Part shown: positions 5,835 to 64,000 of the stretch, in pieces
Layout of the letters: every line of letters begins with the position of its first letter
How positions within the stretch are numbered: position 1 is the first letter of the stretch
Assembly: GCF_030464345.1 (NCBI RefSeq)
Contig: NZ_VCYH01000002.1
Location: 248,001 to 312,000 of the forward strand
DNA length: 64,000 bases
Direction: 5' to 3'
Source of the DNA: Methanoculleus frigidifontis
Lineage (GTDB): Archaea; Halobacteriota; Methanomicrobia; Methanomicrobiales; Methanoculleaceae
The notes under the pieces: generated by a model
The model's database searches: none
What the model was told of the DNA's origin: nothing
What the model saw: only the letters and a program-made list of their open reading frames with translations
Made by a program: the position numbers and the translations under genes

Positions 5835-6461
5835 ATGGCACAGGAACAGATGCAGATACAGAAACGGTATGAACTTCCCCCGCTCCCCTACGATGCTGCC
5901 GCGCTCGAACCGCACATCTCCCGGGAGCAGCTCTCCCTGCACCACGACAAGCACCACCAGGGCTACGTCACGGGCGCCAACGCCGATCTCGAGAAGCTCG
6001 AGCAGGCACGGCAGGAAAATGCCGATATCGACGAAAAAGCGATCCTCAAAGAGTTCGCGTTCAACATCGGCGGGCACATCCTCCACTCGCTCTTCTGGCC
6101 AACGATGGCGCCCGCGGGCAAAGGCGGCGGGACGCCCGGAGGGGCGGTTGCAGACGTACTCGACCGGGAGTTCGGCACCTTCGACCGGTTTAAAAAAGAG
6201 TTTTCCCGGGCCGCATCCAGCGTCGAGGGGTCGGGATGGGCAGCTCTTGTTATGGAGCCCCTGAGCGGGCGGCCGCGCATCATGCAGATCGAGAAGCACA
6301 GCAACAACGTCTATCCCACCGCCCCGATCCTGATGGTTCTCGATCTCTGGGAGCACGCCTACTACGTCGACTATCGGAACAACCGCGGCCAGTTCATCGA
6401 TGCATTCTGGAACGTCGTCAACTGGGACCAGGTGAACAGCCGGATGGAGAAGATGATCTGA
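5835..6461 (+). CDS. sod: Fe/Mn superoxide dismutase
   Basis: This 208-residue enzyme dismutates superoxide to oxygen and hydrogen peroxide in the cytoplasm. The family metal ligands are visible: a His in LHHDKHHQGYV, a His in GGHILHSLFW, and the pair in LDLWEHAYYVDY (D-x3-H). Length is normal for archaeal Fe/Mn-SOD; the metal cannot be fixed from sequence alone. A good AGGTGAT ribosome binding site lies 6 nt before the ATG. The gene stands alone, oxygen defence in a strict anaerobe. Confidence 0.95.
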   Translation: MAQEQMQIQKRYELPPLPYDAAALEPHISREQLSLHHDKHHQGYVTGANADLEKLEQARQENADIDEKAILKEFAFNIGGHILHSLFWPTMAPAGKGGGTPGGAVADVLDREFGTFDRFKKEFSRAASSVEGSGWAALVMEPLSGRPRIMQIEKHSNNVYPTAPILMVLDLWEHAYYVDYRNNRGQFIDAFWNVVNWDQVNSRMEKMI

Positions 6462-6591
6462 CCGGTCACGCCTGCGGCAAGAACCGACGAAATCCACTCA
6501 TTTTTTCCGCAATCCCGCCCGTATCTGCCAGAGACAGGCAGAGGGGGCATCTTTGGCAACGTTTAATCTGCTTCCCGCCCAACGTACGTAA

Positions 6592-6629
6592 TTCATTCAG
6601 GGGCCATTCATTGCTTTTTCTTGAATGAA
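6592..6629. promoter_or_regulatory. Inverted repeat upstream of the acyl-CoA ligase
   Basis: TTCATTCA and TGAATGAA form 8-bp arms separated by 22 nt, 50-90 nt before the start codon. The placement suits a regulator site or a leader structure. No regulator is known. Confidence 0.3.
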
Positions 6630-49040: not shown

Positions 49041-49232
49041 TCACCCACCTTTTTCTCGCGCGTTCATCAATCCCAGTGCTGCCGTGAGCCAGTAAAACCC
49101 GAAGAGGAGCATCATATACGCATTCCGTGCACCGACGCATACACCACTCACAGCAGATTCCCCACAACACCGGCACCCAAACCCTGCTCGCCGCACCACC
49201 GCCGGCCCCTGCAGGGGATCGACCGCGTTCAT
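49041..49232 (-). CDS. Small Cys-rich membrane protein, last gene of the primase operon
   Basis: This 63-residue protein begins MNAVDPLQGPAVVRRAG. It has a cysteine cluster (FGCRCCGESAVSGVC) that may bind metal, then one membrane helix (AYMMLLFGFYWLTAALGLM). The ATG overlaps the primase stop (ATGA), and GGAGGGGGTG directly upstream is an excellent ribosome binding site, which makes this a real gene despite its size. Function unknown. Confidence 0.65.
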   Translation of the reverse strand: MNAVDPLQGPAVVRRAGFGCRCCGESAVSGVCVGARNAYMMLLFGFYWLTAALGLMNAREKGG

Positions 49233-52093
49233 CGCACCCCCTCCCTCGCGTTCCACTCCCGCACCAGCCGTGCGTAGCACCCCTGGCAGATATTCGCCTG
49301 CGCCTCGCGTGAGCGGTAGACTGCCTTTGCGCCGTCGCAGATCTCGCACCGGCCGAGCTCGACCTTCGTCCGCTCAAACGTCCGGTGATCGAGCAGCCCG
49401 GGCAGCGGCCGGATGCCGGTTGCAACACTGTTGTACAGGGTGTTGCAAACGGGGTTGTAAACGGGGTTGTAAACAGTTTTCGCGAGGAAAGTCTTCGATA
49501 CGTCAGGGAATTCCAGATTCCTCGATACATTCTCATTTTCGGGTTTTTCGTTTGCAACCGATCCGAAAACGCACGGCGCCGGGGGTTCGTGCAGGCGATC
49601 CGGCTGGCCTTCCAGTGGAGTCGGATCGGGCGTGCCGTGCGATCCGGAAAACGTTGCAAACGATACAGAATCGTCGCGATCGATCTCTGCCGTATCTCCG
49701 CCGTTTTCAGAATCCTCCCCGGACTGCCGCGAACACGCACCCGCGATCTCTTTACAACCCTGTTTACAACCCTGTTTACAACCCTGTTTGCAACCATCAG
49801 TACAACCACCGTCCGGCGGCGGCGGGGAGTCCTCGTCCCCCGCGTCCGTATCCCCGTCCTCCAGCCAGACCGTGAGCTCTGCCACCCATTCCCGGTAGCG
49901 CTCGACGTCGAACTGGAAGTGGTGCTCGTGCCAGCGAACGGTCGTCCCGGTGCTCTCGTCGATCACCGTCGCGTCCACCACACTGACGACCGGGCACTTC
50001 TCCAGGAGGCCGCAGTAGACCGTGCCCTTCGCGGTGTAGCCCTGCAGGATCCGCCGCGTCCGGTGGTAGGGCAGCCCGAGCGCCTGCTGCAGCATCCGGA
50101 CCGTGAACGTCGCCCAGCCCATCCGGGCGATCGTCGCGAGGGCCGCCGCTTCGTTCCGGGTCAGCTTCAAATCCTGCCCGCCCCCCTCACCGTTGATCGC
50201 ACTGTAGAGCCTGGCCGCCGCGTCGAAGTCCTGCCGGGTCGCCTCGATCCGGACCTCGCCGCCGGCCTCCCGCCGTTCGCGCTGCAGGAACCGCAGCGCC
50301 GCATGGCACTTGATCAGGTCGAAGAGCATCGCCGGGTTTCTGCGGTTTTCGACGCTGGAAAACTGGATCCGCCGGGCGAACGGGATCCGGACGAAGATCC
50401 GGTGCCGTTTCACGACCGCCCAGAGCGCCCGGGCGGTCAGGACGTCCGGATCGTCGCCCTCCGGCTGCTCGCCCGCTTCCACGCGCTTGAGGTGCTCGAG
50501 TACCGCCGCATCCTGCTCGGCCGAGTCGTCGATCCAGACCGTCAGCATCCGGTTCATCACCTGGTCGTCGCCCGGGTTCTCGACCTTCGCGAGCCACCAG
50601 ACGCACCGCTCCGGTATCGAACAGACCCGGAGCTGCCGGTCCGCCGTGACCGTCCGGTGCTCGATCGGTTCGTGGAAGGACGAGGTCGCTGCTTTCAGGA
50701 CCTCCTGCAGGTCGTCCGAGAGGGCGGTGTCGTCGAAGAGGATCACCGTCCCGGGCCGGAGATCGTCGGCGTAGTAGAGCGCTTTGTTCGAGACGGTGCC
50801 CTTCAGCCGGTAGTCCTCAGGGACGAGGTCGAGCATCGTCGTGCAGGCGTGGGACTTGCCTTTGCCGGAGTTCCCGGAGATGGTGACATGCAGCCCCTTC
50901 GTGTTCTCGATGCTCTGCGAGGCGACCGACATCGCCAGGCACTCCGCGACGACCCGGTCGCCGACGTGGGTTTTGTTGAAGGTATCGAGCAGGAATCCGA
51001 GCGGGTCGCCTTCTTTCAGGATCGCCATCGCCCGGCGACGGTGCTCGTCATCCGGTGGAGGAGGGGCGGGTCGCTCCTCCTTCGTCTCCGGCCGCTGCAC
51101 CCGTTTCTCCCGGGGCCGGTAGCGGCCCCGCAGTTCCGGCCAGCGCTGCGCCCCGGCGCCGCAGCTCGTGTGGTGGCAGCCGGCGAAGATCGCGCCGTTC
51201 GCGAACTGGATCGCAAACGCCCCGTCCTTGTGCGCCGGGGAGAACGGGCAGTCCTCGAGGACGTAGAGCGTGCCGCCGCGGTAGGGCTTTGCCGACCGGA
51301 CGGCGATCCCGTTGTCGCAGAGCCAGGCGGCGAGGTCAATGGCTCCGCCGGTCCGCTTCGGCGCCGGCTCTTCGGTCGGGAGCAGCCCGGCGAGGTGCCG
51401 GAGCAGTTCCACCGGAACGATGCCCACGTCCTCCGGCACGGAGAGGAGGTCTGCCCGCCGGTGCGGCCGCTCAGGCGTGTTGTCGCCCTTCCGCGAGACG
51501 GTGCCGTAGAGTTTCCAGATCCGGGCGGCGTTGTAGTTCGCGGTGTCGACGGTGACCTTTTCGTTCGAGAAGAGGGCGTCGAGGACGGCGAGACACCCTT
51601 TGACGAGGTCCGTCGCCGCGGTATCGTTCGGAAGATCGATCCGGTAGAGGAGGTGGGCGCCGTTGCCCGAGTCGGCGATGATCGGCGCCGGGAAGCCCTG
51701 CTCTGCGAGCCAGGCGGCGATCAGGCCTGCCGTCTCGAGAGCGAGGTTGTGCTCGGCGTCGGTCGAGGAGACGCCGCTCGGCCGGACCGGGTCGATGTCG
51801 ACCGGCAGCCAGCGGCGGCGGAGGATGTCGGCATCGGCGGTCGTCGCGTCTTTCCGGGAGAGCCGCATCTTGATCCGGTTCGCCCGGCGGGCGAGGAGCG
51901 CACCGTTGACGGGGTTGAGCGTCACATAGATCCCGGCGACCGAGGGGTCGGCGTCGAGGACTTCAGCTCTGCCGGCGAGCTCGGCAGGGTCGTCGAAGTA
52001 GCCGGAGTGGACGCCGGCGTCCCCGAGCACCCGTACCTCGACGACGCCGTCCGGGGCGAGCAGGGCCGCCGCCCGGAGGATATTATCCTGCAT
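49229..52093 (-). CDS. PrimPol-type primase fused to a helicase-like ATPase
   Basis: This 954-residue replication protein has an N-terminal archaeo-eukaryotic-primase core: WLPVDIDP (DxD), ADSGNGAHLLYRIDLP (sGxGxH) and VDTANYNAARI. A zinc-finger-like stretch CPFSPAHKDGAF...FAGCHHTSC follows, then an ATPase with Walker A TISGNSGKGKS and Walker B VILFDDTALSD. A winged-helix part comes near 680 (TFTVRMLQQALGLPYHRTRR). Past about residue 760 the protein is low-complexity, with GCKQ and VYNP repeats produced by the DNA repeats at 49419-49806, and ends in a CxxC pair motif (CEICDG...CQGC). Such primase-helicases occur in archaeal plasmids and proviruses. Confidence 0.85.
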   Translation of the reverse strand: MQDNILRAAALLAPDGVVEVRVLGDAGVHSGYFDDPAELAGRAEVLDADPSVAGIYVTLNPVNGALLARRANRIKMRLSRKDATTADADILRRRWLPVDIDPVRPSGVSSTDAEHNLALETAGLIAAWLAEQGFPAPIIADSGNGAHLLYRIDLPNDTAATDLVKGCLAVLDALFSNEKVTVDTANYNAARIWKLYGTVSRKGDNTPERPHRRADLLSVPEDVGIVPVELLRHLAGLLPTEEPAPKRTGGAIDLAAWLCDNGIAVRSAKPYRGGTLYVLEDCPFSPAHKDGAFAIQFANGAIFAGCHHTSCGAGAQRWPELRGRYRPREKRVQRPETKEERPAPPPPDDEHRRRAMAILKEGDPLGFLLDTFNKTHVGDRVVAECLAMSVASQSIENTKGLHVTISGNSGKGKSHACTTMLDLVPEDYRLKGTVSNKALYYADDLRPGTVILFDDTALSDDLQEVLKAATSSFHEPIEHRTVTADRQLRVCSIPERCVWWLAKVENPGDDQVMNRMLTVWIDDSAEQDAAVLEHLKRVEAGEQPEGDDPDVLTARALWAVVKRHRIFVRIPFARRIQFSSVENRRNPAMLFDLIKCHAALRFLQRERREAGGEVRIEATRQDFDAAARLYSAINGEGGGQDLKLTRNEAAALATIARMGWATFTVRMLQQALGLPYHRTRRILQGYTAKGTVYCGLLEKCPVVSVVDATVIDESTGTTVRWHEHHFQFDVERYREWVAELTVWLEDGDTDAGDEDSPPPPDGGCTDGCKQGCKQGCKQGCKEIAGACSRQSGEDSENGGDTAEIDRDDSVSFATFSGSHGTPDPTPLEGQPDRLHEPPAPCVFGSVANEKPENENVSRNLEFPDVSKTFLAKTVYNPVYNPVCNTLYNSVATGIRPLPGLLDHRTFERTKVELGRCEICDGAKAVYRSREAQANICQGCYARLVREWNAREGVR
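49419..49474 (+). repeat. Iteron-like array, left (direct orientation)
   Basis: GTTGTAAAC-type units begin at 49419, 49430, 49442, 49454 and 49466, the last four exactly 12 bp apart. Units four and five are identical 12-mers (GGGGTTGTAAAC). Read on the minus strand, they encode VYNPVYNPVCNTLYNS in the primase tail. Confidence 0.85.
49550..49661. repeat. Isolated iteron units between the two arrays
   Basis: One unit GTTTGCAACC at 49550-49559 has the orientation of the right array. One unit GTTGCAAAC at 49653-49661 has the orientation of the left array. Both lie in otherwise non-repetitive primase coding sequence. Confidence 0.7.
49750..49806 (-). repeat. Iteron-like array, right (inverted orientation)
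   Basis: Units of GTTTACAACCCT, the reverse complement of the left array unit, begin at 49750, 49762, 49774 and 49786, exactly 12 bp apart, with a degenerate fifth (GTACAACC) at 49800. On the minus strand they encode GCKQGCKQGCKQGCKE, a peptide unrelated to that of the left array. Confidence 0.85.
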
Positions 52094-52427
52094 AGCATCC
52101 CTCCTGCAGAAGGGGGAAGAGGGGGGCGCTTGCGGCCTCCCCGCGGGCCACCCGCTGGAAACTGACCAGCGGGATGACGTAGGAGCCGGCGCGGGTGTGG
52201 AGCGCCACCGCCCTGCCGCCGCCGGTCACCGCAGCGTGCCCCTCGATCGTCGTCCTGCCCATCGGCGCACTGCCGTCCCGCACGACCCGGACCTGCAGGA
52301 CCGGCGCCGCCCGGCCGGAGAAGAGCAGCGCCTGTGCGTCCCCGGGATCGATCCGGTAGTGCTCGGCGTCGACCATGACGTGCAGGGTGCCGCCGCTGCC
52401 GTAGGCGAGCGTCCCCGGTTCAGTCAC
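52083..52427 (-). CDS. Small beta-rich protein upstream of the primase (GTG start)
   Basis: This 114-residue protein starts MTEPGTLAYGSGGTLHVMVD and is mostly beta strands (VLQVRVVRDGSAPMGRTTIE, AGSYVIPLVSFQRVARG). The GTG start overlaps the stop of the 56-residue gene upstream (GTGACTGA), and its own end overlaps the primase start by 11 nt. This coupling, rather than homology, supports it. Function unknown, presumably replication-linked. Confidence 0.65.
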   Translation of the reverse strand: MTEPGTLAYGSGGTLHVMVDAEHYRIDPGDAQALLFSGRAAPVLQVRVVRDGSAPMGRTTIEGHAAVTGGGRAVALHTRAGSYVIPLVSFQRVARGEAASAPLFPLLQEGCYAG

Positions 52428-52590
52428 CGGCCTTCGCCCCCTGCCGGGTGATGGTGGTGACGGTATAGTAGTGGCCGGCGGCGGCGACGACGTGGATCTC
52501 CCGGACCGCCCTGCCGTGCCTGCCGACTGCGGCCGCCACCACCTGCGCAATGAGGTAGAGCGGGACCGTCTTCAATCTCTCATCGCTCAT
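52420..52590 (-). CDS. 56-residue protein, first gene of the primase operon
   Basis: This very short gene reads MSDERLKTVPLYLIAQVVAA to GHYYTVTTITRQGAKAGD. It is supported by a TATA box at 52619-52626 about 30 nt upstream, CGGAGCGTG before the ATG, and the overlapping start of the next gene. No family was recognised. Confidence 0.55.
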   Translation of the reverse strand: MSDERLKTVPLYLIAQVVAAAVGRHGRAVREIHVVAAAGHYYTVTTITRQGAKAGD

Positions 52591-53002: not shown

Positions 53003-54148
53003 TCAGGTACGGCCCGGCCGGCCGCAGGCGGCGAGCACCTGCTCGGGGTCGTAGCGGAGCAGGATCTCCCGCGTCCGCCCCCTGCCGGTCCGGAGCAGCA
53101 GGTCGACGATCCCCGCCTCCTCGAGCCGTTTTAACCGGGCGTTGTAGGTCGTCTTCCCGATCGGGGCGTACTCCTGCGCGGCTTCGTAGACCGCTCCCGA
53201 CGTCACCTCAGCACCGCCGTCCCGTGCGGCTTCGGCGATGCGGGAGAGGAGGGCACGTTCGCTCTCGCTGAGGTTCGCGGCCCGGGTCTGCAGGGCGGGC
53301 GCGATGATCGACCGGGAGGCCTCCGTCACGTCGTTTCGGGTGACTGTCCGGCGGCCGTCCGCCTCCGCCCGCACGGCCGCCTTCCGGACGAGGTCGATCC
53401 CGACCCGGACGTCCTCCTCCTCTGCGGCGATATCCGTGATGAGGGCGAGGGCCGCCCTCGGCACCACGTTCGGGTAGAGGCCCTGCCGGATGCGGGCGGC
53501 GAGGATCTCGCGGATCTCCGTCTTGGTGTACGGCGGGAAGAAGACCTCGGCCGGGTGGAAGACCGACCGGACGCGGACGTCGACTGCGGCGTAGAGGTTC
53601 AGGGCAAGGTCGCTCGAGACCGCGAAGACCCCGGCTCTGCGGACGTCCCACTTCTCGGAGAGGCGGAGGAGCCGGTAGAGGAGGTCGTTGAGGTGCCCCG
53701 ACTCGTGCAGGTAGTTGGCGTCGTCCAGGCAGACGAGGAGCGCGGCGTTCCGGTCGCGGAGCCGCCGGACGATGCTGCCGAGGACGTCGTCGACGTGCGT
53801 GCCGGTCGACGGCGGGGCGTAGCCGACGAGTTTTTCGAAGATGCACCGGAAGACGGCGAGCGGTGTGCGGTCCTGCTGGCAGTTCACGTAGACCGGGACG
53901 ATCGTCTGCGTCGCCTCTTCTATCTCGGAAAAGAGCCGGAGGACGGTGGTGGTCTTGCCGGTGCCGGGAGGGCCGCGGAGGATCGCGCTCTCCGGGCTGC
54001 CGCCCCGGACGGCCTGCCGGGCGAGGAGGGCGAGTTCGCGGCTCTGGGCGTCGCGGTGGTGGAGCTGATCGGGGACGTAGGCGAACTCGAAGACCTCGCG
54101 GTCGCGAAAGAGCGTCTGGTCGTAGCGGAGGGTGTCTCTCTGTCTCAT
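53003..54148 (-). CDS. cdc6: Orc1/Cdc6-family replication initiator
   Basis: This 381-residue AAA+ protein loads or recruits the helicase at origins. An N-terminal FEFAYVPDQLHHRDAQSREL lid region precedes Walker A GPPGTGKTTT, Walker B LLVCLDDANYL (a DDAN variant of the common LDEID), sensor region FAVSSDLAL and Arg-rich VRSVFHPAEVFFPPYT. A C-terminal winged helix starts near 285 (YAPIGKTTYNARLKRLEEAG). It is divergent from the winged-helix gene at 54210 and upstream of the primase operon on the same strand. Whether it serves the chromosome or an integrated replicon cannot be told from one gene. Confidence 0.92.
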   Translation of the reverse strand: MRQRDTLRYDQTLFRDREVFEFAYVPDQLHHRDAQSRELALLARQAVRGGSPESAILRGPPGTGKTTTVLRLFSEIEEATQTIVPVYVNCQQDRTPLAVFRCIFEKLVGYAPPSTGTHVDDVLGSIVRRLRDRNAALLVCLDDANYLHESGHLNDLLYRLLRLSEKWDVRRAGVFAVSSDLALNLYAAVDVRVRSVFHPAEVFFPPYTKTEIREILAARIRQGLYPNVVPRAALALITDIAAEEEDVRVGIDLVRKAAVRAEADGRRTVTRNDVTEASRSIIAPALQTRAANLSESERALLSRIAEAARDGGAEVTSGAVYEAAQEYAPIGKTTYNARLKRLEEAGIVDLLLRTGRGRTREILLRYDPEQVLAACGRPGRT

Positions 54149-55308: not shown

Positions 55309-55710
55309 TCACTCCTTCTTTCCAGATACAGCGCTTCCACCCGGTGAACCCGGGTGCTGCCCGGAATTTTTTGTATCAGTGAGCACGGGAAGCAGCACCA
55401 CGAGCTCCTCCTTGAGTGCGGGGATATCTCGGTCGACAACCACCCACACCTCATCGAGATCAACACGGAAATATGCATGAACCAGAATATCCCGGAGACC
55501 GACGATCTGCTTCCAGGGAACCCTGGGACAGGCACTTCGTATCTCGGGCGGAAGGCGTGCAGCCGCTTCACCGATTATTTGAAGGTGGTGAACCATCCAG
55601 ACCTGCACCAGTTCCTCCTGCAGGAACACCTCCTTGCCCCGGACCGCATACCGTTCGATATCGTCGATCGCCTCCAGGATATCGAGGAGCCGCTCGCTCC
55701 CATCCCTCAT
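55309..55710 (-). CDS. hepT: HEPN-domain toxin (HepT-like)
   Basis: This 133-residue helical protein of the HepT/DUF86 family carries the RNase motif R-x4-H-x-Y in GLRDILVHAYF, plus the usual VHHLQIIGEAAARLP helix. HepT toxins cleave RNA and are silenced by MntA, which AMPylates the motif Tyr. The start overlaps the mntA stop (ATGA). The last ~20 residues (PGSPGGSAVSGKKE) are not typical and may be read-through into foreign sequence. Confidence 0.88.
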   Translation of the reverse strand: MRDGSERLLDILEAIDDIERYAVRGKEVFLQEELVQVWMVHHLQIIGEAAARLPPEIRSACPRVPWKQIVGLRDILVHAYFRVDLDEVWVVVDRDIPALKEELVVLLPVLTDTKNSGQHPGSPGGSAVSGKKE

Positions 55711-56000
55711 AGGGGCACCAGCTCACTCAGGATCCGTACGCGGTACCGCTCCTTGAGCGCCTTTTCGGTCACCACATCCACCCTGCACCCGAGATCTTCC
55801 TCCAGATCCTGGATGAGCGCGATGTGATCGAGAAGGCTTCTGCCCGGCTCCATCTCCACCAGAAGGTCGAGGTCGCTCCCAAAATCCGCCTCGCCCCGGG
55901 CGACCGAGCCGAAGACCCGCAGGTTCGTTGCGCCGTGCCGCTCGGCTATTGCAAGAATCCTGGATCGCTTCTTCCGGACTGCATCCAGTGTCACGGACAT
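55707..56000 (-). CDS. mntA: Minimal nucleotidyltransferase antitoxin (MntA-like)
   Basis: This 97-residue MNT-fold protein has GSVARGEADFGSDLDLLVE, containing the GS..RG...SDxDLLV active site. It pairs with the overlapping HepT gene as antitoxin through AMPylation. Such pairs are frequent in archaeal genomic islands. Confidence 0.9.
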   Translation of the reverse strand: MSVTLDAVRKKRSRILAIAERHGATNLRVFGSVARGEADFGSDLDLLVEMEPGRSLLDHIALIQDLEEDLGCRVDVVTEKALKERYRVRILSELVPL

Positions 56001-56111
56001 ACCTGTTCAAGGAATTCTATCGGGTGCGGGGGATATAAACCTGCCTCACGGGGGTGTCCATGCGTGAAAATATTCCCGAAGAAATGTTCCTCTTTTCGCC
56101 GAAGGCTACTC

Positions 56112-56205
56112 CCAGAGATACTTTCCGCCGACCGGCACGAATCCGCAGGCCTCTCCAGGCGTTCATACCGCCGGATATTCTCGAGCTCGAGCGCGAGCAG
56201 GGGTC
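56112..56205 (-). pseudogene. Fragment of a DUF365-like gene
   Basis: The minus strand reads LLALELENIRRYERLERP, nearly the C-terminus of the intact gene at 62153 (WLALELEDIRRYERPEKP); the reading frame then breaks. It is one of several pieces of the same two-gene module scattered over 8 kb. Confidence 0.75.
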
Positions 56206-56560
56206 TGCCTGTGGAGACCACAGGGTATGAACCCAGGGACCAAGTAGGGACTACGTCGGGACCAAGTCGACGTGCCGGACGACAGAGATGTTCATTCCCT
56301 GCCTCGTGGACGTTGTCGGGAGGGATACTTGACGGGTACGCGTTCGGAGTGCCAGCTCGTGGAGATCAATGCCGACAATGAAACAAACCACCGGTAAATT
56401 CTCTGAGATCCGCAGAGTTTCTCGTACTTGACGGGTACTTGATGAATCACCCCTTCCGTCGCGGACACTTTCGGGGCGCAGGCCGCAGGTATATACGTTC
56501 ATCCGGAAAGCCCTTTACAAGGGACAGGCCGGCGTTTCGGCACTCCCAGGGGGACGAAAT
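56206..56560. other. Intergenic region before the ComF-DprA pair
   Basis: This 355-bp gap has no supported gene. It contains two copies of ACTTGACGGGTAC (56327-56339, 56426-56438) and GGGACCAAGT-like repeats near 56236 and 56259. A TATA box GTATATAC at about 56488-56496 should drive the downstream pair. Confidence 0.5.
56488..56496 (+). promoter_or_regulatory. TATA box of the ComF-DprA operon
   Basis: AGTATATAC-like sequence (GTATATAC) 65 nt before the ComF-like start, implying a leader of about 40 nt. Confidence 0.45.
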
Positions 56561-57256
56561 ATGGAAAGAATCTTTATCCGGTCTGACGACACAGGACTTG
56601 AAATCCTCTATCCGCCGTATTGTGAAATCTGCGGCAATCCCATTCCCGATAGTTTTGCAGATACGTTTCCCTATTGCGCGGCGTGCAGGAACAGACCGGA
56701 TAGAGATGACCCTCCCGTCCGTATCCGGGCATTCGGAAAGTATCTCTATGAGAATGAGTTCCCGGGCGACACTCTCAGCAACGAGATCAGAGGGCTGAAG
56801 ACGGACCAGCGCTTTGTCCCGCGGCTCTGCGAATGCCTGTACTATGCGATCGAGCGCCAGTACCCGGATCTTCGCGATCTCGACGTCGTCATCCCGGTGA
56901 TGCGGGGCTCCGATGATAGAGCGTACAACCCGTCGGCACTTCTGGCAGAGGGTGTTGCCTCACGCTACGGTATTCCGTATCTGGACGTCCTGTATAAGAG
57001 CAAAGTATATCGCTCACTGCATAGTATCCATGATCACCGCGAAAAGGAGAAGGAGATAGCAGGTAATGTCGGGTGCAGGTACCGGTTCAACGGCGAATCG
57101 GTTCTCCTGATCGACGACACCTGTATCACCGGAGCGACAAAACGGGAGTGCGCCACGGTGCTGCAGGCGCATGGTGCAGGCGAGGTCTGGTCGCTCGTCC
57201 TCGGAAGACTGGTCAACCGGAAACACCTGGAGACACTGAGGAACTACAATGAATAA
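56561..57256 (+). CDS. ComF-like phosphoribosyltransferase-fold protein
   Basis: This 231-residue protein has an N-terminal zinc knuckle (CEICGNPIPDSF...YCAAC) and a type I phosphoribosyltransferase fold. The PRPP loop is VLLIDDTCITGAT and the region VVIPVMRGSDDRAYNPSALL is the ComF counterpart. AGGGGGAC before the ATG is the ribosome binding site. It overlaps dprA by 8 nt. ComF proteins act with DprA in DNA uptake in bacteria; in archaeal islands such PRTase-DprA pairs more likely serve defence, which is inference here. Confidence 0.82.
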   Translation: MERIFIRSDDTGLEILYPPYCEICGNPIPDSFADTFPYCAACRNRPDRDDPPVRIRAFGKYLYENEFPGDTLSNEIRGLKTDQRFVPRLCECLYYAIERQYPDLRDLDVVIPVMRGSDDRAYNPSALLAEGVASRYGIPYLDVLYKSKVYRSLHSIHDHREKEKEIAGNVGCRYRFNGESVLLIDDTCITGATKRECATVLQAHGAGEVWSLVLGRLVNRKHLETLRNYNE

Positions 57257-58205
57257 TCTTTCAACCCGGGAGATCGCATTTCTCGCCGCCCTCAATGACA
57301 GCCAGTTGCCGAAGAGGCAGGAGTATGCCGAATACTTCCGCGACCCGGCGTTCCTCCGCGATCTCTACGCCGCTGTTTTCGAAAACGATACGGACTCCCT
57401 GATGGCTTACCCCGACCATCTCCGCCCTCTCATCGCACGGGCGGAGGATCTTCGGGAGCGGGATCTTCTTCCATTCTTCGCCGACACGATCGCGGCATAC
57501 CGGCAGAACGGTACCCGGATCCTCCCAATCTTCGATGCAGGGTATCCGAAGAGACTTCCGGAGATCCCGGACCCGCCTCTCATTCTCTACCAGGCCGGCC
57601 GCGAGGAGAGCATCGCAAAGCCGGCGGCTGCCGTCGTCGGCACGAGACGGATCAGCAGCGAGGGTATCGCGAGAACCCGGGAAGCGGTTGCCATCCTTGT
57701 CCGTCTCGGCTACGTGATCGTGAGCGGCCTTGCCCTCGGGACCGATACCTGCGCTCATACAGCCGCACTGGAGTTCGGCGGCGAGACGATCGCGGTCCTG
57801 CCGGGAGATATCGAAGCCGTCGTTCCGCGGCAGAACCGGAACCTCGCCGTAGCGATCACCGCCTCCGGCTCTCTTCTGAGCGAGATAACTCCTCTCACAA
57901 AGATGCACAAGGGCAGGTACATCGAGCGGAACCGCATCACCAGCGGCCTCTCCGAAGGCGTGGTGGTCGTCGAAACCGCTGCGTCCGGCGGCTCCGTCCG
58001 GCAGGCAGAGGTCGCGTTCCGGCAGGGACGGCCGGTCTACGCCTTGAAGCCCGACGATTCGAACACGGAAGCCATGGCCGGATACCGGCGGCTCGTCTCG
58101 AGCGGAGCGGTTCCGGTCGAGTCCCCGCACGACCTTTCCCAGTATTTCGGAAAGCTGCAGCAGAGCCCTGCCTCGCGGGCGACGACGCTTGCGGATTTTT
58201 CGTGA
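57249..58205 (+). CDS. dprA: DprA/Smf-like DNA-processing protein
   Basis: This 318-residue protein has the Rossmann-like DprA core: YPKRLPEIPDPPLILYQAGR, AAVVGTRRISSEGIARTREA, VSGLALGTDTCAHTAALEFG, AVLPGDIEAVVP and RNRITSGLSEGVVVVETAAS. DprA binds single-stranded DNA and loads recombinase during transformation. No competence machinery is in the window, and pairing with a ComF-like gene inside a defence-type island suggests an immunity role. The N-terminal ~75 residues are family-specific. Confidence 0.9.
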   Translation: MNNLSTREIAFLAALNDSQLPKRQEYAEYFRDPAFLRDLYAAVFENDTDSLMAYPDHLRPLIARAEDLRERDLLPFFADTIAAYRQNGTRILPIFDAGYPKRLPEIPDPPLILYQAGREESIAKPAAAVVGTRRISSEGIARTREAVAILVRLGYVIVSGLALGTDTCAHTAALEFGGETIAVLPGDIEAVVPRQNRNLAVAITASGSLLSEITPLTKMHKGRYIERNRITSGLSEGVVVVETAASGGSVRQAEVAFRQGRPVYALKPDDSNTEAMAGYRRLVSSGAVPVESPHDLSQYFGKLQQSPASRATTLADFS

Positions 58206-58496
58206 CCGACGGAGGGGTGGAACCACCCTCCCGCGATCAAAAAAAGCCAGAATTGCGGTTCTTTTTCGATGTTCCCGCCCGTTTCGGATCCCGGATTCCG
58301 GCATTTTGAATGGCCGGCGAATCGCGCCCCGATTCACGAAATTCGCCAGGATCCGAGGGCCATATCGGCGATATGAGCGCGAGTAATTCCCGGACGATGG
58401 TTACTATGGCCCGCCCCGAGATCGTCCGTCTGAGGGCTTCTGTGAGGGTCGAAATTCCGGCGGATCTGCCCAGGATTCCTGATATTTAAGATTTGC
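58206..58496. other. Intergenic region after dprA
   Basis: No gene is supported in these 291 bp. A/T-rich spacing and a short run AAAAAAAG near 58240 may mark the end of the ComF-DprA transcript. Confidence 0.35.
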
Positions 58497-58499
58497 TGA

Positions 58500-58754
58500 A
58501 CCCGGAGGCGCCAACCGCCGACGATCTCGGACACCGGTTACGCACCCTGCCCCGCCCGCTCGAGGACGAGCCGATAGTCCTCTTCCGGGATCTCCCGCAT
58601 CGCCTGCCGGAGGTGCCCGCTCCACAGGGTTTTGTTGGTGACGAACGCAAGGTCCGGGATCAGCGGCTTGAACCCAGGGGTTCGGCGAAGACCGCGGCCG
58701 GCTCGACCTTCACGCGGCAGGGGAAGACTTCGTCGCCCATATGCTCCGGCGCCT
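58500..58754 (-). pseudogene. Truncated EVE plus DUF365-like gene pair
   Basis: This remnant has the same order as the intact pair at 62153-63034. The C-terminal ~75 codons of the EVE gene end in a stop (58540), and 7 bp later the start of the DUF365-like gene (GTG, MSEIVGG) breaks off. The EVE part shares long identical stretches with the intact gene (GATCTCCCGCATCGCCTGCC) but has frame changes. Confidence 0.8.
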
Positions 58755-58944
58755 TAATCCAGCTCGGGAAAATTGCGTGACGCCGGAGGTATCTGTCCGC
58801 CTCTCACATGTGGATGCCGGGTGGAAGCGGCTGGTATTTCCGTTCAGGTTATGCTCTTCTCCGACCGGCTGGAGGTGGGATCCCGTTTTTTGTGAATGGA
58901 TAGGCTCCGGGTCATTTTCTATAAGCTGATGCTTCAGTTTAAAA
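58755..58944. other. Intergenic region left of the nurA promoter
   Basis: No gene is supported; the base composition turns more A/T-rich towards the nurA-herA promoter. Confidence 0.3.
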
Positions 58945-58965
58945 TCGTAAATGTCTCATTTACGA
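58945..58965. promoter_or_regulatory. Perfect palindrome upstream of nurA-herA
   Basis: TCGTAAATG and CATTTACGA are perfect 9-bp arms around TCT. A third related element AAATGTCT follows at 58978-58985. The palindrome lies about 37 bp upstream of the TATA box CTTTAATAA (59001-59009), a typical spot for an activator or a repressor of the defence operon. Confidence 0.6.
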
Positions 58966-59000
58966 CGAAAAACGCCCTAAATGTCTGATTAAAATAGGAA

Positions 59001-59009
59001 CTTTAATAA
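59001..59009 (+). promoter_or_regulatory. TATA box of the nurA-herA operon
   Basis: CTTTAATAA 43-51 nt before the nurA ATG, in an A/T-rich stretch unlike the surrounding GC-rich DNA. Confidence 0.55.
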
Positions 59010-59051
59010 ATCTCCTCGTAAACCACTCCAATATTCAGGTTCCGTGAGTAT

Positions 59052-60191
59052 ATGCAGGCAGACTCTTCTGAAATTCAGCCATTCAACGAACTGCCTGAAG
59101 CTTTGGTAGAAGAGTTGCTCGATCAGTGCGGAACGATGGGAGAGACGCTCTCCCATTCGTTTCGGCATCTCCTCGAGAGTAAAGTCGAGATTCGGACTGC
59201 TTTGGCAGATAACGGTTTACTAAAACACGATTCTGATCTCCTCACGAACCATTCCTATCCGACGAGTTGTGGCGTAGACGGTGCGTACACCCTGGAGCGG
59301 CTGCTCTCCACCGACATGGTGGCAGTAGCCGGGGTCGCCGTTGAAGGACTGACGCCGCCGAGCGAGACCCGGCACTGGGAGTATCCCCATCATCTCTGTG
59401 AGGTGCTGCCCACCAAACACCATGGCAAAACAGGGCTCGTCACAAGAGCGATCATGTTTGCGATGGAGCTGCACCTGGCCAGTTCAGCGCCGCACGATGT
59501 CGTTTTTCTTGACGGGTCGTTCACCACGCCGCTCATCAACATCCAGCAGGCACTGTACACCATCGATGAGGTCGATACCAACCTCTCCAATCTCTTACTC
59601 GAACAACTGGAAAGCACACTGGAGGCATATGAGACACTCCTCTACGCCAGACGGTCTGACCAGCAGTTTGTCAGTGTGCCCAAATACACAACCCATAACC
59701 AGGTGGCAAAGATCCTCCTGAAAAGCGGCATGTATGAAGACCGGGCTCTCCTCTCCTTTGTATTGCAGGCAGGAGAGTACATCCGGCCGTTCCCCTATCA
59801 GGTGCCAGAGAGCATGTGGTCATTTGCAGAACCTTCTCTCAAGGAAATGGGAAATCTGAAGACGATCATCGATGGCATGAGCAACCTGTACGTGGTGTAC
59901 TACCGCCCCTTCCTCCACTCGCCGACCTTCAGGTTGGAGCTTCCCTACGCGGTTGCGACCAATAGAGACCGCCTTTCCAATGTATTTGAAGCAATAAAAC
60001 TGCAGAGCGGAGTTCCCGGGATCTTTGAACCCTATCCCCTCTACCTGGCGGACAGAATGGTGAAACAGATGGGTAAGGCCGTCCCTGCAATCAGAAAAGC
60101 CACTACGCAGGAGATGCTGCAGTTCTGGGACCAGGCGGAGGCGGAGGTATACCTACTGATGCACGGCTACCGGACCGAAATAGGACGATGA
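59052..60191 (+). CDS. nurA: NurA-domain nuclease
   Basis: This 379-residue protein has the two metal-binding NurA motifs: SCGVDGAYTLERLLS (motif with DG) and DVVFLDGSFTTPLINI (LDGS). A C-terminal Asp/His region follows (LELPYAVATNRDRLS). NurA is a 5'-3' exonuclease that works as a dimer on the HerA hexamer, used in end resection and in several anti-phage systems. The gene is A/T-richer than most of the window, suggesting transfer. The stop is 9 bp before the herA ATG. Confidence 0.85.
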   Translation: MQADSSEIQPFNELPEALVEELLDQCGTMGETLSHSFRHLLESKVEIRTALADNGLLKHDSDLLTNHSYPTSCGVDGAYTLERLLSTDMVAVAGVAVEGLTPPSETRHWEYPHHLCEVLPTKHHGKTGLVTRAIMFAMELHLASSAPHDVVFLDGSFTTPLINIQQALYTIDEVDTNLSNLLLEQLESTLEAYETLLYARRSDQQFVSVPKYTTHNQVAKILLKSGMYEDRALLSFVLQAGEYIRPFPYQVPESMWSFAEPSLKEMGNLKTIIDGMSNLYVVYYRPFLHSPTFRLELPYAVATNRDRLSNVFEAIKLQSGVPGIFEPYPLYLADRMVKQMGKAVPAIRKATTQEMLQFWDQAEAEVYLLMHGYRTEIGR

Positions 60192-60200
60192 GTGAGAACG

Positions 60201-61985
<1,785 letters not shown>

Positions 61986-62152
61986 GGGAAATCTTTGGAT
62001 CTGGCCTTATAGTGGAGAAATGTGTGGGAGTATGGCTATCTGGTGGAGTTTGGTGAGGGATCCACCAAGGGGGGAACTGCGCATAGGGAATGAAGGTGAC
62101 GGGATTCTGGGCGATGATCAGAACGAATTCGAAACCACCGCCACCCAAAGCG

Positions 62153-62581
62153 TCAATTCCGCAAGTACTTCCCGCCGACCGGAACGAATCGCTCCGGCTT
62201 CTCCGGGCGCTCGTAGCGCCGGATATCCTCGAGCTCGAGCGCAAGCCAGGGCCGCTTTTTCGCCTCCCCTTTCCGGACTCGCAACCCTTGCCATTTCTCC
62301 TGCTCGCTCTGGTAGGCCGTCACTTCGTCGCGGGTGAGGAAGACGGCGTCGCCGTAGGTAGCGAAGAAGGCGAGCGGATCGTCTGCTATGACAATCCGCT
62401 TGATGGTGGCCTCGCCAACATAGCCGGTATCCTCATGTGACTGGTAGAAGACGAGTTTCATGCCTGCGCGGAGATCTTTGAAGACGGTAGCCGGTTTGAT
62501 GAAGACGGTCTTCCCATCATCGAAGAATCGGGACATGTATTCTTTCGGCACCGGGAAGGTGACGCCGACGATCTCGGACAT
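62153..62581 (-). CDS. DUF365-like (ASCH/PUA-fold) protein
   Basis: This 142-residue protein starts MSEIVGVTFPVPKEYMSRFF and contains ATVFKDLRAGMKLVFYQSHE and GEATIKRIVIADDP. The pattern suits a small PUA/ASCH-type nucleic-acid-binding fold, as in archaeal DUF365; the family name is tentative. It follows the EVE gene with a 3-bp gap. Broken copies of it lie at 56.1 and 58.5 kb. Confidence 0.72.
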   Translation of the reverse strand: MSEIVGVTFPVPKEYMSRFFDDGKTVFIKPATVFKDLRAGMKLVFYQSHEDTGYVGEATIKRIVIADDPLAFFATYGDAVFLTRDEVTAYQSEQEKWQGLRVRKGEAKKRPWLALELEDIRRYERPEKPERFVPVGGKYLRN

Positions 62582-62584
62582 CGG

Positions 62585-63034
62585 TTACGCACCCTCCCCT
62601 GCCTGTTTGAGAATGAACAGATAGTCCTCCTCCGGGATCTCCCGCATCGCCTGCCGGAGGTGTCCGCTCCACATGGTTTTGTTCGTGATGAACGCCAGGT
62701 CCGGGATTAACGGCTTGAACTCCAGGGGTTCGGCGAAGACCGCGACCGGCTCGACCTTCACGCGGTAGGGGAAGACCTCGTCGCCCATATGCTCCGGCGT
62801 GACGAAGATGCGGCTCCGGTCTTCGTAGGGTTCCGACGCGACCGCATATGCGCCGGCTATCGCCGAGGGGAGAATTTCGTCGTCCCGTTTCTCCTGTCGG
62901 ACGAAGAAGAGGATGGTGTCACCAGGTTTCACCCGCTGCATGATATTCTTGTTTCGCTTTGGGACTCCCCAGACGTGCTTCGTTCTGACGACCTCCCAGT
63001 TGTCGCGGTTCGAGGAGGCGATCCAGCGTGTCAT
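62585..63034 (-). CDS. EVE-domain protein
   Basis: This 149-residue protein fills one EVE domain: MTRWIASSNRDNWEVVRTKH, then VWGVPKRNKNIMQRVKPGDT, ILFFVRQEKRDDEILPSAIA and [23 protein letters not shown] domains belong to the PUA group and often recognise modified bases; they are common near restriction genes. Partial copies at 54.9 and 58.5 kb show that this module has been duplicated and lost repeatedly here. Confidence 0.88.
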   Translation of the reverse strand: MTRWIASSNRDNWEVVRTKHVWGVPKRNKNIMQRVKPGDTILFFVRQEKRDDEILPSAIAGAYAVASEPYEDRSRIFVTPEHMGDEVFPYRVKVEPVAVFAEPLEFKPLIPDLAFITNKTMWSGHLRQAMREIPEEDYLFILKQAGEGA

Positions 63035-63057
63035 GCTTGATTCTTTGCGATGGCAAT

Positions 63058-63064
63058 AAAAAAA
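63058..63064 (-). terminator. Oligo-T terminator of the brxL-like gene
   Basis: Seven A on the plus strand give seven T on the minus strand, 14 bp beyond the stop of the BrxL-like gene, separating it from the EVE gene. Confidence 0.5.
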
Positions 63065-63077
63065 AGGATGCGATTAC

Positions 63078-64000
63078 TCATGCCTCGCTGATGGCCTTGA
63101 ACGCTGCCTGCATTGGATCCGAGAAGAACTCCACCCGCAGCTTGTCTAGCAACTCAGGTGGGATACCTCCAAAATCTGCCGCGTTTGTGGTCGGTATTAT
63201 CACCTGCTTTGCCCCGGCATCCATGGCAACTCTGATCCGATCTCCGAGATACTCGACTCTCGAAAGCACTCCATGGATAGTCATCTCACCAAGGATAATC
63301 ATGCCACCTGCAAGCGGTTTTTTGACAATTGCAGACAGGATGGCTACATAAAATGCAACGCCCATGTCTTCCGCTTCCTTCCCGTGGCCAGGGCTCATCA
63401 CCTGAATGTTGAGATCGTAACTTCCGATGTCCTGTTCAAGTCCAAGCTTTTTGCTGTTGACCCGCAGGTAGTTGTACGCCATCTGAGCGGACTCTCTGAT
63501 GGACTTTGACGTCAGTCCAACGATCTTAAACTTACCAGAACCCGGTATGGCGGCAACCTGTATCCGGAAGAGCATCACTCTGCCCAGTGTGGTGTCCCAT
63601 CCAATGCTGAAGACGTCGCCGGGCGCCATCGGCCCTTCGGGGATCAGCTTTGTCACTCCTATCTCCGAACATTCGGCGATGAACTCATCACCGTTTTCCT
63701 TATCAAGGTACGACAAATTCACCCGGGAGAATTCGATAGGGTTCATCCGCTTCAACTGCTCTTTGACCCGCCGCCGCATCTCCAGGCCGAGATTTATGTA
63801 CTCTGCCATCTCCTCTTTTGTGCATTTTCCATCGGGATGGATGAGTTTTACGAGGCCGGAGATCGTCCGGACCGCTGCCTTCCTGTCACGCTGGCCGACA
63901 TGGTTGCCGAATGAGAAGCATGCGTCGTAGGTGTCGGTATAGTTTAGGGGTCTGAGGCCGTTGTGGAAGATCTCTGCGATATAATCAGCAACAAACCCCA
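63078..64000 (-). CDS. brxL: BrxL-like Lon-related protein, C-terminal part (runs off the window)
   Basis: Only the last 307 codons are inside; the frame is open to base 64000. They read GFVADYIAEIFHNGLRPLNY, SFGNHVGQRDRKAAVRTISG, then a Lon-protease-like domain (GHGKEAEDMGVAFYVAILSA, GGMIILGEMTIHGVLSRVEY, QVIIPTTNAADF). This agrees with BrxL of BREX phage-defence systems, an AAA+ protein with a Lon-like C-terminus. The Ser of Lon (usually in DGPSAG) and the Lys are not apparent. The remainder of a BREX locus would lie to the right. Confidence 0.82.
   Translation of the reverse strand, partial: GFVADYIAEIFHNGLRPLNYTDTYDACFSFGNHVGQRDRKAAVRTISGLVKLIHPDGKCTKEEMAEYINLGLEMRRRVKEQLKRMNPIEFSRVNLSYLDKENGDEFIAECSEIGVTKLIPEGPMAPGDVFSIGWDTTLGRVMLFRIQVAAIPGSGKFKIVGLTSKSIRESAQMAYNYLRVNSKKLGLEQDIGSYDLNIQVMSPGHGKEAEDMGVAFYVAILSAIVKKPLAGGMIILGEMTIHGVLSRVEYLGDRIRVAMDAGAKQVIIPTTNAADFGGIPPELLDKLRVEFFSDPMQAAFKAISEA

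Follow-up and report, generated by a model that had tools for sequence, protein, structure and literature searches.

The window, by which we mean the whole 64-kb stretch of DNA that was analysed, carries a gene for a predicted replication initiator of 954 residues, and the coding sequence of that gene holds two inverted arrays of a short iteron with an inverted pair of single iterons between them (Table 1). The initiator has no significant Pfam match, and Pfam and PDB sequence searches with it gave nothing useful. Its domain order, read from AlphaFold models and Foldseek comparisons, is an AEP primase, an MCM-like AAA+ ATPase, a winged helix (wHTH), a linker bearing the iterons and a zinc ribbon. 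In the model built with 41 homologues, pLDDT falls below 50 over exactly residues 748-899, the iteron linker, and the other domains are confident, the ATPase core partly so. The best PDB matches of the AEP domain are the RSF1010 RepB' primase (3h20/3h25; for 3h20, E 5.4e-4, prob 1.00) and mycobacterial Prim-PolC, with several further Prim-Pol structures behind them, and its invariant residues D99/D101, S142-H147 and D183 correspond to the DxD, SxH and D motifs. Both by fold and by motifs, the N-terminal part thus qualifies as a predicted member of the AEP primase superfamily. The ATPase domain matches the MCM structure 4r7y (E 8.5e-9), and its Walker motifs GNSGKGK and LFDD are conserved, while the winged helix is supported by weak MarR_2/HTH_23 matches in family members. 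A match to replication protein O is absent from Pfam and from the listed Foldseek matches of the initiator, no Rep_3 protein was found in it, and the iteron region has no Rfam match. Upstream lie a small gene, also without a Pfam match, and an orc1/cdc6 gene; beyond the small gene and sometimes orc1, no conserved neighbours of the initiator recur.

Table 1. Features of the initiator locus, in window coordinates unless another contig is named.
Feature	Coordinates	Strand	Basis or remark
Initiator gene, 954 aa	49229..52093	-	ORF; AlphaFold models, Foldseek; 78 related loci
AEP primase-polymerase domain with Zn motif, residues 1-330	51104..52093	-	model pLDDT 88; Foldseek; invariant residues
MCM-like AAA+ ATPase domain, about residues 356-640	50174..51028	-	Foldseek; Walker motifs
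Winged-helix DNA-binding domain, about residues 643-745	49859..50167	-	weak Pfam matches; model helices 665-672, 676-684
Disordered-linker coding stretch holding the iteron region, residues 748-899	49397..49852	-	pLDDT <50
C-terminal CxxC...CxxC zinc-ribbon-like domain, residues 900-954	49232..49396	-	invariant Cys 916/919/936/939
Whole iteron dyad	49419-49806		~9-bp units at 12-bp steps
Outer iteron array 1, 5' side in gene sense	49750..49806	-	12-bp steps; encodes GCxxGCKQGCKQ
Inner iteron of inverted pair	49653..49661	+	layout conserved
Inner iteron of inverted pair	49550..49558	-	layout conserved
Outer iteron array 2, 3' side in gene sense	49419..49474	+	12-bp steps; encodes VYNPVYNPVCNTLYN
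GTTGYAAAC core units	49442, 49454, 49466	+
GTTGYAAAC core unit	49550	-
GTTGYAAAC core unit	49653	+
GTTGYAAAC core units	49762, 49774, 49786	-
A+T-richer spacer	49475..49549		56-58% A+T vs gene about 32%; possible unwinding region (inferred)
Small gene upstream of initiator	52083..52550	-	conserved in 38 loci; true start uncertain
orc1/cdc6 gene	53003..54148	-	relatives in 20 of the related loci; absent from the stretch common to L089 and L090
Remnant C4, solo ~390-bp iteron region	L092 5917-6307 = own genome C4:202916-203306

Of the core GTTGYAAAC the window has 9 copies against 0.23 expected, and 8 of the 9 fall within 49442-49794; looser units widen the two outer arrays to the limits given in Table 1. 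Read in the sense of the gene, an array of forward units (49806 to 49750) comes first, then a reversed (49653) and a forward (49550) inner unit, and finally the array whose units are reversed (49474 to 49419). An initial annotation had described two inverted arrays of a unit at 12-bp steps inside a primase gene, one DNA unit giving two unrelated peptides, and had proposed that the DNA rather than the protein is conserved. All three claims held: the identical unit is translated as GCKQ in one array and as VYNP in the other, and the evidence for the third is given below. Counting both strands, GTTGYAA is found 11 times in the linker; over 5000 synonymous-codon shuffles it averages 3.8 occurrences and never exceeds 9. 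The iterons therefore go beyond what chance or codon choice would give. In many loci the inner iteron of each arm is succeeded by a second conserved box, resembling GGATCACACAG or GAATCATGGAGA (in the window at 49548-49577 and 49634-49663); it might be a second binding site or might reflect a constraint on the protein.

A scan recovered 78 homologous loci, mostly from Methanomicrobiales. In a sample of 295 genomes from the phylum, 52 matched, with 1-5 matches per genome that often lay in large chromosomal contigs, and the full-length form of the initiator was found in the same order, the Methanomicrobiales. No free plasmid or virus with a full-length initiator was present in the collections searched, and no circular contig was found among the homologues. 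Across about 90 Methanomicrobiales homologues most linkers contain an iteron dyad, and in most a repeated motif that differs between clades (GTTGCAAA, TGCTGTAA, TGCTGTCA or GGTGCAAA) occurs on both strands; further linker motifs include GCTGCAAA, TGCTGAAA, TGCTGCCA, GATGAAAA and others. A 7-mer repeated more often than in synonymous shuffles was detected in 48 of 59 linkers at p<=0.05 and in 40 of 59 at p<=0.01, leaving about 11 of 59 homologues without a significant motif by this test (e.g. L010, L014, L022, L042 and L050). The usual arrangement is a mirror layout (----+ / - / + / -+++) with steps of 8-11 bp, and the clade of the window has longer inner arrays and 12-bp steps. Spacing between the two inner units is 101-105 bp in the window clade and mostly 76-80 bp in other clades. 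The same mirror layout, again with clade-specific motifs, reappears in a second set of genomes. The comparison with homologues that the initial annotation had proposed thus has a clear outcome, in which the layout persists across clades, the motif turns up in every frame and on either strand, and synonymous sites within iterons are conserved (see below). In the linkers of L012 and L013 (in L013 from about 10221), the right-hand cluster has been amplified in frame by tandem duplications of ~153 bp, giving 20-22 iterons.

That the iteron sites are constrained as DNA is shown by the frames in which they are read, by synonymous rates and by a pseudogene copy. Among the homologue linkers, each of the three reading frames is found to pass through the motif, which also occurs on either strand. 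Synonymous codon differences amount to 91/1751 (5.2%) inside iterons and 1867/7763 (24%) outside, making synonymous changes about fivefold fewer within the sites. Because the pairs compared are related rather than independent, and because conserved sites are preferentially picked up by the motif finder, we also give the figure obtained when iterons lost in one partner are counted, which is 276/2805 (9.8%).

The host genome contains three full copies of the initiator and several remnants, and the copies share the small upstream gene and the initiator but not orc1. Genome-wide, GTTGYAAAC occurs 53 times, compared with 5 for the reversed control, and clusters at the copies of the gene; the core is not common across the genome, as it would have to be under a refuting condition named in the initial annotation. 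Closely spaced iteron pairs number 33 in the 3.17-Mb genome, compared with 1 for the reversed control, and 30 of the 33 fall in copies or remnants of the initiator gene. One of the three iteron-like pairs outside them (GTGTAAACGGCGGTGTAAA, at C1:619981-619999 of the same genome) lies about 100 bp from a contig end, and a further copy may have been lost there in the assembly gap. Copy C3 is frameshifted and internally deleted and has kept its iterons. Remnant C4 is a solo iteron region with in-frame stop codons, in which the iterons are intact and the rest of the initiator gene is missing; compared with C3, its iterons are 91% identical and its spacers 67%. C4 adjoins a large, repeat-rich ORF resembling a surface protein and lies upstream of ABC-transporter-like genes. 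It could be a mere remnant, a decoy, or a satellite origin using the initiator of other copies.

The iteron varies together with the winged helix encoded beside it. Where residues 688-689 of the wHTH are SR, AR, AK, TR or CR, base x of GxTG in the iteron is C or T, and where they form an N-containing pair (NN, NG or NS) this base is G. The agreement extends to 46 of 46 loci, with the iteron classes assigned by hand and loci with unclear motifs left out; there are no binding data. On the tree the iteron base switches five times, and all five switches are concordant with residues 688-689 (sign test p=0.0625, the minimum possible with five). The rule was derived from L007 and then applied to a later batch of sequences fetched for another purpose, which obeyed it: L119, L134, L135, L136 and L137 came out in the G class, and the clear GCTG loci in the opposite one. 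L007 itself falls with the GCTGTCA clade by its N-terminal part (support 99) and with the GGTG clade by its winged helix (support 95); the case for a chimera is not significant on its own (AU p=0.11 against the other placement). L119, for its part, is a clear swap of the wHTH and iteron segment in a gene that elsewhere shows 90-94% identity. Over the 600 bp up to about residue 655, DNA identity between L119 and L011 is 93-97%; it drops to 73% and then, from the second half of the winged helix through the iterons, to 50%, before returning to 93-98%.

We consider it likely that the arrays form an intragenic replication origin that is bound by the winged helix of the initiator encoded there. The layout, the constraint on the DNA, the confinement to the initiator gene, the co-variation with the wHTH and one cassette swap are shown by the sequences, and binding, opening, priming and origin activity are inferred. 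Among the possibilities raised by the initial annotation, replication iterons or an origin are the best supported. Taken jointly with this reading, the replicon carrying the arrays is likely to represent a mobile replicon family of the Methanomicrobiales. In three genomes that hold few such genes, an initiator copy has a tyrosine integrase at a distance of about 1 kb, which fits an integrative element. Orc1, which had been suggested as a binder of the arrays, is an unlikely one: the intact copies L089 and L090 in the same genome retain the iterons without having an orc1 in common with the window, and it is the winged helix of the initiator itself that the iteron follows.

In the mechanism that we propose, the winged helix, encoded right beside the iterons, would bind the two mirror-image clusters and the inner inverted pair, two oppositely oriented complexes would assemble with two ATPase rings, the MCM-like ATPase would melt the duplex, the spacers richer in A+T being the probable place, and priming would fall to the AEP domain. 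Origin specificity would be exchangeable as a cassette, because the binding domain and its sites share one stretch of ~0.6 kb. The linker spacers contain 54, 45 and 51% A+T, compared with 36% for the gene, and no single, strongly A+T-rich unwinding element stands out. A model with one such element on a fixed side was rejected, as the side is inconsistent across clades. Iteron plasmid origins of the Rep_3/RepE kind are marked by direct repeats spaced at about one helical turn together with an A+T-rich region; iteron steps across the window family are 8-12 bp.

The closest functional parallel is the origin of phage lambda, which lies inside gene O, where iterons are bound by O and adjoin an A+T-rich region (PMC7466680). 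Lambda, like the Stx phages, shares with the window family the placement of repeated sites inside the coding sequence of an initiator. O is, however, an unrelated and much smaller protein, whereas the window family combines AEP, MCM-like and wHTH domains and additionally has mirror-image arrays with an inner inverted pair, clade-specific iterons and exchange of the wHTH and iteron cassette. By analogy of function, the locus would work like lambda ori without having an initiator homologous to O or being a member of that group. ORF904 of the Sulfolobus plasmid pRN1 is likewise encoded by an archaeal mobile element, unites an AEP primase, an ATPase/helicase and a winged helix in one protein and has a gene-linked origin. 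In pRN1 the origin lacks iterons and consists of a stem-loop of ~100 bp located downstream of the gene (PMC4234260), and the helicase is of SF3, whereas the best fold match of the window initiator is MCM. The window locus does not qualify as a replicon of the pRN1 type, since its iteron dyad is intragenic, although the strand can fold. SaPI Rep and SCCmec Cch2 are self-loading helicases whose C-terminal domain reads short iterons beside the gene (PMC7581432); they differ in being bacterial, in their domains and in having origins downstream of the gene rather than inside it. The Rep helicase domain of the small Methanothermobacter plasmids pMTBMA4 and pMTB1 resembles the ATPase region (24% identity, E 6e-9 to 5e-8), but these proteins lack full-length similarity to the initiator. 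We found no repeats inside the rep genes of pMTBMA4, pMTB1, a Leptospira plasmid, an M. hollandica plasmid and two phages. Origin recognition by the winged helices of related primases has been proposed by Kazlauskas et al. (PMC5862659). What is new here is an archaeal PrimPol/MCM-like family with intragenic mirror-image iterons, iterons specific to clades, and natural exchange of the winged helix together with its sites; in the literature searched we found no paper describing this initiator gene family or an archaeal origin embedded in a primase gene.

Several other explanations of the arrays deserve consideration. Firstly, the inverted arrays and inner arms might form a long stem-loop or cruciform that is recognised by its shape, as is reported for the origin of the crenarchaeal plasmid pRN1, rather than as duplex iterons. 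In favour of this, strand folding is strong in every clade tested and far exceeds that of shuffles (z -6.8 and -7.3 for the window, -2.5 to -9.4 for 14 relatives), the inner arms are about 60-77% complementary within the window clade, and pRN1, with a similar domain set, uses such a structure. However, mirror-image iterons fold well regardless of function, and the register of the outer arms, 87% paired in the window, is only 43-68% paired in relatives, where a 12-bp slip pairs better. Outside the core, inner arms match their own partners at 12.98 of 35 positions and the arms of other loci at 12.5; extended inner-arm pairing beyond the core, not rising above mismatched loci, was rejected. Shape also leaves the association of wHTH and iteron unexplained. 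We regard this alternative as unlikely, without being able to exclude it.

Secondly, the arrays might be a centromere or partition site, or another protein-binding site without a role in initiation, such as autoregulatory operators or an incompatibility or copy-number site. Inverted iteron arrays are also found in partition and copy-control sites, and in C4 a repeat region has survived alone, with no intact initiator close by. Against this, the iterons are placed at the gene's 3' end, a long way from the initiator promoter, the only recurrent neighbours are those named above, and the iterons track the initiator's own winged helix. A partition site, which the initial annotation had also offered, is without support though not excluded, and we hold explanations of this kind to be very improbable. 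Lastly, the view that the repeats serve no purpose as DNA and merely result from selection on the protein or from tandem expansion within a disordered tail can draw on a linker that is disordered and tolerates expansions such as the ~153-bp duplications, but is virtually ruled out by the use of several frames and both strands, the conserved synonymous sites and the iterons kept in pseudogenes.

Returning to the origin reading, a bolder version of it is that, throughout the family, the stretch that codes for the DNA-binding domain and the disordered linker at the same time holds the sites read by that domain, so that specificity and origin diversify together and are exchanged as a recombining cassette of ~0.6 kb, giving many specificity groups in the same archaeal hosts. 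We hold this version to be about as likely as not. If true, it would give a reason for keeping an origin inside the initiator gene, namely that recombination cannot easily part the binding domain from its sites. With dozens of initiator-origin pairs found in nature, a residue predicted to govern recognition and a domain exchange that occurred naturally (L119 vs L011), the family makes the DNA-recognition code of an initiator directly testable; little is known of the origins of methanogen mobile elements.

Some minor features of the surroundings were also recorded. The part of the window adjoining orc1 (55309-63809) holds genes for DprA, NurA-like and HerA-like proteins and a Lon-like protease, and a pair of small ORFs which, on inspection only, resembles a HEPN/MNT toxin-antitoxin pair; the region resembles a defence island or cargo of the element. 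An interspersed repeat of ~250 bp with 70-73% identity occurs in the window at about 58224-58497 and in L092 at 1294-1537 and 6348-6605. Another interspersed repeat, of 160-250 bp, is present in L091, L093 and L090 of the host genome, twice in L091 about 5.5 kb apart, and one of its copies abuts an initiator remnant.
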